A stretch of DNA of 64,000 nucleotides from positions 1,110,001 through 1,174,000 of the forward strand of contig NZ_JALQCS010000001.1 of assembly GCF_023277115.1 (NCBI RefSeq). The letters run 5' to 3'. The DNA is from Acidithiobacillus acidisediminis. Its GTDB lineage: Bacteria > Pseudomonadota > Gammaproteobacteria > Acidithiobacillales > Acidithiobacillaceae. Shown piece after piece: positions 39,408 to 40,859 of this stretch (positions are counted from its first letter, which is position 1; the number at the start of each line of letters is the position of its first letter). The translations under genes were made by a program, and so were the position numbers. The notes below the pieces were generated by a model. It worked only from the letters and a program-made list of their open reading frames with translations. It was not told where the DNA came from and searched no databases.

Positions 39408-39650
39408 ATGTCTGCACACACGCCACGGCAAATTGTCGAGCGCCTGGAAATTGCCATCCTAACATCAGAGCAGATGCGCCTGCACTGGGTCGATGAGCGG
39501 GATCAAACCCACTACATGAGTGTTGTCTTGCCCCTGAGCTTTGAAGAAGGCGAGCACGCCGACTTCCTGCACTGCCGAGTGCTGGAGGATAACGTAGAGC
39601 TGCGCGTGCGCGTAGATCTCATCCAGAATCTTCCGACACCCGTCAAGTAA
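39408..39650 (+). CDS. Small hypothetical protein
   Basis: 80 residues, acidic, beta-rich by eye (QMRLHWVDERDQTHYMSVVLP, then a C-terminal ELRVRVDLIQNL). It vaguely resembles the small barrel of Rof-type proteins, but I cannot assign it. The ATG at 39408 has GGGAG at 39398-39402. Only 15 bases separate it from the start codon of the divergent flavin oxidoreductase gene, so the promoters of both genes must lie inside each other's coding regions. Confidence 0.65.
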   Translation: MSAHTPRQIVERLEIAILTSEQMRLHWVDERDQTHYMSVVLPLSFEEGEHADFLHCRVLEDNVELRVRVDLIQNLPTPVK

Positions 39651-39664
39651 AGTCTTTCGTGCTC

Positions 39665-40246
39665 TCACACGAAATCTGTACTTCCTTCGTCTTCTTCCCA
39701 CTCCGGTCCGCGCAAAAGGACCTGACGATAGTGACGCAGTTCCGCAAGCGATTCACGAATATCACTCAAAGCTTCGTGGCGTTCTGATTTCTGGAATCGT
39801 GCAAGCTTGGGATACCAGCGCGCACTCAGTTCCTTCAAGGTTGAGACATCGATCAGCCGATAGTGGAAAAATCGCTCCAAGCGCGGCATGTGCTGCGCGA
39901 GAAAGCGACGATCCTGGCAGACACTGTTACCACACAGGGGGGAAGTTCCGGGTGTGACGTGGGCCTGAAGGAAATCTAAGGTTTGGGTTTCCACGGCGGC
40001 AAGATCCAGGCGACTGGCGCGGACACGCTCGATCAATCCAGAGGCCCCATGGGTGCGCTGATTCCAGTCATCCATCGCGCGTAGCACGGTTTCGTCATGG
40101 TGTACTGCTAGGACTGGACCTTCACAGATAACCCGTAAGTCGTTATCGGTAACGATACTCGCAATTTCGAGGATGTGATCCTGTTGGGGGTGGAGACCCG
40201 TCATCTCGAGGTCAATCCAGACTAAGCGTTGACTCTTGGGATCCAT
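39665..40246 (-). CDS. orn: Oligoribonuclease
   Basis: 193 residues. DEDDh exonuclease motifs are all visible: WIDLEMTGL (Exo I, Asp and Glu), [11 protein letters not shown] (Exo II), and the [12 protein letters not shown] Exo III histidine and aspartate. It degrades 2- to 5-mer RNA and the linear dinucleotide pGpG from cyclic di-GMP breakdown. A GAGGAG ribosome site precedes the ATG. The tandem terminators just upstream (40296-40741) would stop RNAs coming from the repeat region before they reach orn. Confidence 0.96.
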
Positions 40247-40295
40247 CAGCTCTCCTCATTGGCGATGCTATATGGTAGCATGAGGATGCGCGGAC

Positions 40296-40320
40296 AAAAA
40301 AAGACGGGCGAGTGCCCGTC
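40296..40320 (-). terminator. Intrinsic terminator of small RNA C
   Basis: On the minus strand a 7-base stem GACGGGC / GCCCGTC with a 4-base loop is followed by seven T residues, 50 bases before the orn start codon. Confidence 0.9.
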
Positions 40321-40432
40321 TAATAGCCGCAAAACAACCGCTACAAACTTTTTGGCTTGCAGGTCTGTGCCTGTTTGCCGTGATTCTTACGCTCCGTCAT
40401 CATCGTGAGGCTTGGGTAGATCGCCTTCCTTG
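40296..40432 (-). ncRNA. Candidate small RNA C
   Basis: A predicted minus-strand RNA of about 137 bases, from about 10 bases downstream of the site expected from the direct repeats (40451-40472) to the terminator. It contains a CAGG/CCTG hairpin and a conserved 3' segment rich in T and G before the terminator. A 20-codon frame (MMTERKNHGKQA start, ending before the terminator) is open in this copy but lacks a ribosome site. The -10 element is poor (CAATCT), so the 5' end is uncertain. Confidence 0.55.
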
Positions 40433-40450
40433 TTGGTTAGATTGCCAGAG

Positions 40451-40472
40451 TAATGTTTCCAGAATATTTCCG
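40451..40472. promoter_or_regulatory. 11-base direct repeats upstream of small RNA C
   Basis: TAATGTTTCCA and GAATATTTCCG in tandem (plus strand), the unit C copy of the same element. Confidence 0.55.
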
Positions 40473-40505
40473 GTTGTAGGGTCCTGGAAACCGGCTAGAG
40501 CCGAC

Positions 40506-40530
40506 AAAAAAAGACGGGCGAATGCCCGTC
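40506..40530 (-). terminator. Intrinsic terminator of small RNA B
   Basis: Same stem as in unit C, with one loop change, followed by seven T residues on the minus strand. Confidence 0.9.
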
Positions 40531-40642
40531 TAATAGCCGCAAAACAACCGCTACAAACTTTTTGGCTTGCAGGTCTAGGCCTGTTTGCCGTGATTCTTAC
40601 GCTCCGTCATCATCGTGAGGCTTGGGTAGATCGCCTTCGTTG
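40506..40642 (-). ncRNA. Candidate small RNA B
   Basis: A paralogue of small RNA C with the same predicted ends and about 137 bases. The short frame of copy C is cut by a TAG after 12 codons here, while the CAGG/CCTG stem is kept and only its loop changes. This favours an RNA rather than a peptide role. The -10 position (CAACCT) is weak and would need an activator. Confidence 0.55.
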
Positions 40643-40660
40643 TTGAGAAGGTTGCCAGAG

Positions 40661-40682
40661 TAATGTTTCCAGAATATTTCCA
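40661..40682. promoter_or_regulatory. 11-base direct repeats upstream of small RNA B
   Basis: TAATGTTTCCA and GAATATTTCCA in tandem (plus strand), matching the repeats at 40819-40840 in period, orientation and core TTTCCA. Confidence 0.55.
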
Positions 40683-40710
40683 TTTGAAGTGTCTTGGATA
40701 CCGGCGTGGA

Positions 40711-40758
40711 GCTGAAAAAAAAAGACGGGTGAAGACCCGTCTAATAGCCGCAAAACAA
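40711..40758. repeat. Partial third copy, unit A (terminator end only)
   Basis: Only the terminator and about 17 bases upstream of it match units B and C. The terminator stem shows a compensatory change (GACGGGT/ACCCGTC against GACGGGC/GCCCGTC), evidence for selection on RNA structure. Confidence 0.85.
40715..40741 (-). terminator. Intrinsic terminator of small RNA A
   Basis: Stem GACGGGT / ACCCGTC with a 4-base loop followed by nine T residues on the minus strand. One stem base pair is swapped relative to units B and C, with pairing kept. Confidence 0.9.
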
Positions 40759-40800
40759 GCAATTGGAGAGGCTGACAAGCATCTGTCGGCGCGTCCACTG
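40715..40800 (-). ncRNA. Candidate small RNA A
   Basis: A predicted RNA of about 86 bases from the promoter at 40807-40840 to the terminator at 40715. The 5' part is unique. It can form an imperfect hairpin (GCCGACA / TTGTCAGC), while the last 44 bases are shared with units B and C. It has the best promoter of the three. Confidence 0.6.
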
Positions 40801-40806
40801 GTCTGG

Positions 40807-40840
40807 ATTCTACAAGACAATTGTTTCAAAATTGTTTCCA
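40807..40840 (-). promoter_or_regulatory. Activator-type promoter of small RNA A
   Basis: On the minus strand TGGAAAC-N4-TTGAAAC is followed after 10 bases by TAGAAT, a good -10 box. This repeats the layout of PhoB/OmpR-class activated promoters: two 7-base half-sites with 11-base period, then 10 bases to the -10. The half-sites start 20 bases upstream of the response regulator ATG on the other strand. Confidence 0.6.
40819..40840. promoter_or_regulatory. 11-base direct repeats before the response regulator gene
   Basis: AATTGTTTCAA and AATTGTTTCCA follow each other without gap (plus strand). Direct repeats with one helical turn are typical OmpR/PhoB-family binding sites. Their place, ending 20 bases before the regulator start codon, suggests autoregulation. 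Confidence 0.6.
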
Positions 40841-40859
40841 GGGCTTCTTGGGGCGGATT

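Follow-up and report, generated by a model that had tools for sequence, protein, structure and literature searches.

The window, by which we mean the whole 64,000-nucleotide stretch of DNA that was analysed (its host genome is 2.8 Mb), holds three minus-strand units between orn and a divergent gene for an OmpR-family response regulator. Each unit is composed of a direct-repeat box, a -10-like element, a variable body, a 20-nt core and an intrinsic terminator. The features are listed here in order of position; the transcript starts are predictions, placed 7 nt past the -10 element.

39665..40246, minus: orn, oligoribonuclease, downstream of the units (NCBIfam oligoribonuclease, 265.9 bits)
40272..40280, minus: extended -10 (TGCTACCAT, pattern TGnTAnnnT) of a likely separate orn promoter, past the last terminator
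40296..40432, minus: sRNA-like unit 3 (orn-proximal), predicted transcript of 137 nt, from box/-10 geometry and terminator
40302..40321, minus: intrinsic terminator stem-loop of unit 3, from terminator scan and covariation; U-tail at 40296-40302
40322..40341, minus: core of unit 3, 20 nt, exact
40439..40444, minus: -10-like element of unit 3, CAATCT
40454..40471, minus: putative regulator box of unit 3, GGAAATATTC-TG-GAAACA, direct repeat of 11-bp period
40506..40642, minus: sRNA-like unit 2, predicted transcript of 137 nt, from box/-10 geometry and terminator
40512..40531, minus: intrinsic terminator of unit 2, from terminator scan
40532..40551, minus: core of unit 2, 20 nt, exact
40649..40654, minus: -10-like element of unit 2, CAACCT, the weakest of the three
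40664..40681, minus: putative regulator box of unit 2, from box search
40715..40800, minus: sRNA-like unit 1 (regulator-proximal, short form), predicted transcript of 86 nt
40723..40742, minus: intrinsic terminator of unit 1, from terminator scan, with a compensated C-G to U-A pair
40743..40762, minus: core of unit 1, 3 mismatches, all toward the 5' end
40807..40812, minus: -10 element of unit 1, TAGAAT, the best of the three
40822..40839, minus: putative regulator box of unit 1, GGAAACAATTTTGAAACA, 3 mismatches, 20 bp ahead of the regulator start codon
40860..41552, plus: divergent OmpR-family response regulator, receiver plus winged helix (Pfam PF00072 and PF00486)

An earlier note on this DNA had described two near-identical 210-base units and a partial third. 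The two long units indeed align gap-free at 91% identity (40290-40499 against 40500-40709), and copies of a 50-nt repeat family start at 40288, 40498 and 40709. The term "partial" was only half apt: the regulator-proximal copy is shorter, but it is a complete unit with its own box, -10 element, core and terminator. It is one of the 5 members of a short class among 52 units measured.

The same note had asked whether the repeats are kept in relatives with the same gene order, and they are. Our set from the Acidithiobacillaceae, in which loci truncated by a contig end are counted, comprises 28 loci with 53 units, all of which adjoin orn; three units are found in 5 loci, two in 15 and one in 8, and predicted unit lengths range from 83 to 189 nt, with 128-160 nt for most units outside the window. 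The identity of the units as a mobile repeat was rejected on account of this fixed syntenic place. The long units of the window are more similar to each other (0.94) than to their counterparts in two relatives (0.81-0.85), whereas at three loci of a larger sister genus the resemblance runs between the unit 1 copies of different genomes; some duplications thus appear to be old, and others young or homogenised. In the long units, a second, less conserved element lies toward the 5' end, past the predicted start and ahead of the core: CCCA[AG] occurs in 42 of 52 units (8.5 expected), and GGAGCG follows in 41 of 52 (2.3 expected). By eye, and uncounted, GGA motifs are few in the units. The spacing of the locus is occasionally interrupted: in L036 (G002), the two sRNA units are about 4.5 kb apart, with other sequence in between, and about 1 kb with an additional open reading frame lies between regulator and sRNA unit in L053 and L054.

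Each unit would be transcribed from a promoter of its own, in which a direct repeat of 11-bp period replaces the -35 element. The putative regulator box, GGAAATATTC-NN-GAAACA, precedes every unit of the window. Upstream of the core in the 53 units, the best box had no mismatch in 24, one in 21, two in 5, three in 2 and eight in one; shuffled sequences usually gave 6-7 mismatches at best, and only 2 of 1120 gave three or fewer. A -10-like hexamer follows 9 nt past the box; its second base is A in 51 of 52 units, and its sixth is T, likewise in 51 of 52. The hexamers of window units 2 and 3 are poor. At this distance, the box occupies the place of the -35 element. A box in the -35 position is the layout of PhoB/OmpR-type activator sites.

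The box is also nearly confined to these loci. A search of 29 genomes at no more than one mismatch gave 49 matches, against none for the reversed control: 45 lie at the sRNA loci, one at a split-contig copy of the same locus (G018) and three elsewhere. This near-exclusive distribution suggests a dedicated switch from regulator to sRNA. The unit with eight box mismatches is unit 1 of L048 in G018, whose box lies on a different contig (L312) than its -10 element and body. On L312, the split box adjoins regulator and kinase and is then followed by unrelated sequence; an insertion thus seems to have split the promoter. In L034, L035 and L036, a box-like GAAA-N7-GAAA repeat lies near the regulator start with no core directly behind it, and may represent a decayed unit or autoregulation.

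At the other end of the units, a terminator scan recovered the three minus-strand intrinsic terminators that had been proposed; over 2 kb and both strands, it found 7 sites, compared with 1.9 +- 1.4 in shuffles. The A-runs encoding the predicted U-tails end at 40296, 40506 and 40715, exactly as first read, and each sRNA would end at its own terminator. The compensatory swap from C-G to T-A reported for the third stem is present in the sequence, and it is part of a wider pattern. Among 41 distinct sequences, eight copies from outside the locus included, 8 of the 9 stem pairs had compensatory changes and 93.7% of cells paired; doubly changed cells numbered 53, versus 12.2 in shuffles, and slid structures paired in just 25-52% of cells. 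A covariance model of core plus terminator, 32 of whose 41 training sequences are locus units themselves, recovered all 53 locus units in the family genomes, with scores of 50-83 bits, as well as the eight dispersed copies, which scored 55-65 bits. Outside the family, the same model gave weak matches in 62 of 113 class genomes (E <= 0.01; best 28.1 bits), many of which span the terminator part alone. In single-sequence folds of 51 units, the core was no more open than the remainder (mean unpaired values of 0.45 and 0.44, respectively). A hairpin within the core (UAGC...GCUA) can be drawn; this candidate was set aside, since its outer pairs are lost in the dispersed copies L114 and L115.

The core, GCGGTTGTTTTGCGGCTATT, is the invariant segment of the units and lies toward their 3' ends, in agreement with the earlier placement of a conserved core on the terminator side. 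At no more than two mismatches it occurs at 57 places in 27 of 29 family genomes (55 exact, two with one mismatch), compared with a single match for the reversed pattern. The two family genomes that yielded no match are G004, where the core is altered at its 5' side, and G005, which is 61% complete. Of the 57 places, 49 are at the orn-regulator locus, all exact, and 8 are elsewhere; an exact core is therefore present in 49 of the 53 locus units, the exceptions being three short units (3 mismatches) and that of G004. Beyond the family set, a species-wide collection contained the exact core in 25 stretches, which derive from Acidithiobacillus, Candidatus Igneacidithiobacillus or three metagenome assemblies labelled Proteobacteria bacterium. 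In a class-wide sample of 274 genomes, the core at one mismatch was matched solely in the window's own genome. Viral contigs held no exact core, and blastn of a 271-nt query against a plasmid collection gave no match.

Six of the eight off-locus copies are exact and two have one mismatch; they occur in G000, G008, G015, G017, G018 and G021, and twice in G023. Each has the core and a different terminator between operon genes:

G000:C1:2021377 (L031)
L055
L056
L057
L114-L117

In these dispersed copies, an intrinsic terminator begins within 0-2 nt after the core, with a stem unlike that of the locus. A same-strand ATG frame starts 26-62 nt past the core at all eight (behind the L117 copy, it leaves the contig after 35 codons), and in L056, L057 and L116 the core starts at the stop codon that closes the frame upstream. 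Among the neighbours are adenine methylase, SSB, PLD-like, HU-like and sigma-70-like proteins and a cytosine methylase; of ten neighbour proteins scanned, six had such a family and four did not. The methylase, SSB, HU-like and sigma-70-like neighbours suggest that the dispersed copies sit in integrated mobile elements; their operons have the look of integrated or conjugative elements. Three weaker, decayed-looking copies, in which the core is shortened or mutated ahead of a terminator, were also noted, at G021:C44 (L228), G023:C1:1607533 (L229) and G043:C25 (L175).

Could the core be a DNA operator rather than an RNA element? It can be read as a degenerate 11-bp direct repeat, GCGGTTGTT-TT-GCGGCTATT, and it thus has the geometry of such an operator at a locus that an OmpR-family gene adjoins. 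We nevertheless regard this reading as quite improbable: the unit promoters already carry a different 11-bp repeat, and the close coupling of core to terminator is retained at the eight dispersed copies even where the stems differ.

The position of the units next to orn raised another alternative, namely that they form a tandem leader or attenuator whose terminators control read-through into that gene. Indeed, orn is co-oriented and begins about 50 nt past the last terminator in 27 of 28 loci. Between the two, however, the extended -10 pattern TGnTAnnnT is present in all 28 loci, against 2.5 expected from shuffled sequence (for L035, the search covered the first 120 nt). With this promoter-like element of orn lying past the last terminator, the units do not appear to be the leader of that gene. 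They also carry promoter-like boxes of their own, and copies of core plus terminator are found elsewhere without orn. An orn leader is thus very improbable, and we rejected it. On the far side of orn, an 80-residue open reading frame without a Pfam family (39408-39647, plus strand) lies between that gene and a luciferase-like one; it is kept in many relatives, at 55-84% identity among the matches.

It is still less likely, to the point of being negligible, that the units code for a small protein. Unit 2 has an open frame of 28 residues, but the ATG of this frame falls in the box, upstream of the predicted transcript start, and is missing in unit 3. Over 52 units, the longest complete open reading frame ranges from 0 to 36 codons, with none in common, and the distances from box to core vary by 1-2 nt between relatives. 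This candidate was likewise rejected, on the inconsistent frames and the ATG outside the predicted transcript.

The divergent gene encodes what is most likely the protein that binds the repeats and activates transcription. Among 92 NCBIfam models, OmpR was the best for this regulator, at 230.9 bits; the score is under the 331-bit cut-off, which places the protein outside the OmpR equivalog. Of the 28 loci, 26 contain the regulator; in one of the remaining two cases, it is on a separate contig. From this arrangement, together with the boxes, it is probable that the adjacent regulator activates the units.

The description of this regulator as an orphan stands for the window, which has no local kinase, but not for the family. 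A histidine-kinase gene directly follows the regulator in 16 of 28 loci (14 full-length matches and 2 truncated by a contig end), and the regulator-kinase pair is also seen on the split contig of G018. In all 8 genomes of the window's genus, the closest homologue of this kinase lies away from the locus, with 60% identity in the window's genome. In three cases that were inspected, the distant homologue adjoins a Redoxin-like open reading frame (Pfam match in 2 of 3), with no regulator-like frame seen alongside. In 5 of the 8 genomes, a cydA gene is found within about 2 kb of the homologue; this cydA is a different paralogue from the predicted target discussed below. The distant homologue at L206:1486-2802 (G000:C1:1411722 onward) has a weak match, just below the cut-off, to a RisS periplasmic domain.

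Taken together, the box and -10 element, the covarying terminator, the core, the orn promoter element and the absence of shared reading frames and Rfam matches support the tandem-sRNA layout of the earlier note. Judged from sequence, these tandem sRNA-like genes form a genuine and conserved family that Rfam does not list. We consider it likely that the window contains three sibling sRNA genes that are activated by the adjacent regulator and act by base-pairing through their cores. The RNAs (86 and 137 nt, as predicted) would probably work with Hfq, which is encoded in 28 of 29 family genomes. They would act in trans, the 20-nt core pairing with mRNA leaders and blocking translation, and may in this way repress a respiratory enzyme.

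The leading hypothesis for their function is that they pair with respiratory mRNAs. A genome-wide view offers it little help. Complementary 13-mers at 2 mismatches numbered 48/42 in the window's genome, compared with 51/41 for the reversed control, and a perfect 13-nt complement outside the core copies was found neither in that genome nor among the further matches listed. ATG-proximal occurrences of CCGCAAAACA came to 109 rows, of which seven are core copies and in which some sites give several rows, against 41 in the control, a ratio that base composition predicts. With the 13-mer counts at control level and this ratio explained by composition, there is no general enrichment of complementary sites. 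Many of the 26 one-mismatch sites inspected lie inside reading frames.

Twenty target regions, picked for ribosome-site-like spacing or for recurrence, were inspected. In two genomes each, a site by a likely ribosome-binding site precedes cydA, a cytochrome bd quinol oxidase gene, or a gene for cytochrome c assembly; in one genome each, such a site precedes the gene for a haem-copper oxidase subunit I or an OmpA-like lipoprotein gene whose start is uncertain. The duplexes of the last three genes rank 2-10 of 400 shuffles, at sites preselected for complementarity. Computationally, the strongest candidate for a target is one cydA gene, by way of its 5' leader, which we treat as a lead rather than as proof; the haem-copper oxidase subunit I gene (labelled here as cyoB-like) and the cytochrome c assembly gene (ccsA-like) are weaker candidates.

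For cydA clade A, leaders from 13 genomes were compared, and 12 fell within the best 46 of 400 shuffled cores; G001 is a misfit, at rank 242. The genus-averaged duplex energy with the core was lower than with 400 of 400 shuffled cores, and also without the genus of discovery; this cydA was chosen after inspection of the 20 regions, and the leaders of orthologues are related by descent. From genus to genus the pairing segment moves, and the energy model ignores structure within each RNA. By comparison, the paralogous cydA clades had mean z values of 0.11 and 0.15, and the leaders of eight local genes had mean z values from -0.95 to 0.42, the lowest coming from a single sequence (in this z comparison, the cydA_A row counts the window genome twice, and the cydA_B row counts at least one gene twice). 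The regulator's own leader leans weakly toward pairing (mean z -0.63).

These data also bear on an alternative in which the RNAs act without pairing to mRNA, their core serving instead as a protein-binding site, a sponge or a stability element. Such a role would fit 20 near-invariant nucleotides whose complementary sites lack genome-wide enrichment, and it would fit the same core in mobile-element-like 3' UTRs. It is harder to reconcile with the presence of Hfq and U-tails, and with cydA leaders which, in genera outside the discovery, complement the core better than any of 400 shuffled versions. On balance, we judge it unlikely, though much less so than the alternatives above, and favor sRNAs that pair with mRNA leaders.

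The core copies in mobile-looking DNA raise the question of whether such elements exploit a host riboregulator. Perhaps they took over the seed of the host sRNAs, so that RNAs from their 3' UTRs mimic or compete with these and retune respiration; we offer this as a speculation that is more probably wrong than right, by a wide margin.

The Acidithiobacillaceae are biomining bacteria, and little is in print on their small RNAs; this locus offers a conserved sRNA family together with a probable neighbouring activator and a target that can be tested. The earlier note knew of no description of this family. At the gathering score, Rfam had no match in the window or four relatives apart from three tRNAs in the relatives, and no description was found in the open-licence Acidithiobacillus literature listed, although an older one elsewhere is possible. 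At E <= 5, Rfam gave five weak matches on the locus (best E 0.56), none to Omr.

The arrangement has parallels in other bacteria. In streptococci, the csRNAs are sibling sRNAs under one OmpR-family regulator, CiaR, with a short direct repeat near the promoter. Several siblings, one such regulator and a direct repeat at the promoter are the (here putative) shared traits; the csRNA hosts, in contrast, are Gram-positive, and the csRNA genes are distal or tandem. We know of no sequence relation between the csRNAs and the units described here. GacA, also a response regulator, has its direct sites almost solely at the promoters of the sRNAs RsmY and RsmZ, a restriction that resembles that of our box, but the Rsm RNAs titrate RsmA via many GGA motifs, unlike the layout here.

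The earlier note had likened the units to OmrA and OmrB. According to one account (PMC4211561), these are sibling sRNAs in tandem that share their ends and diverge in the middle; they depend on Hfq and are under EnvZ-OmpR control, their copy number differs between species, and their characterised regulation is via the 5' region. The tandem siblings, the variable middles and the varying copy number are alike, and the putative OmpR-type control and Hfq use would be further parallels. The comparison stands as an analogy only, because the invariant segment here is on the 3' side, whereas characterised Omr regulation uses the 5' region. Furthermore, the present genes adjoin their presumed regulator, and the boxes are nearly confined to the locus; predicted lengths are 83-189 nt, versus 82-88 for Omr; and the predicted target is a quinol oxidase, while Omr targets outer-membrane proteins.

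Within the same bacterial family, a 2026 paper on CsrA of Acidithiobacillus caldus states that no Csr-family sRNA was found there, and it cites work on Hfq (PMC13029372). An OmpR-family regulator has also been studied in A. caldus, a species for which markerless gene deletion is available (PMC9861516). In that report, the expression primer begins with ATGGCCAAGGCCCGCATC and the boxes follow the E. coli matrix. That primer sequence is absent from the loci compared, the regulator of L039 included, and the published boxes are unlike the box described here; by these sequence comparisons, the A. caldus OmpR is apparently a different gene from the regulator of this locus.
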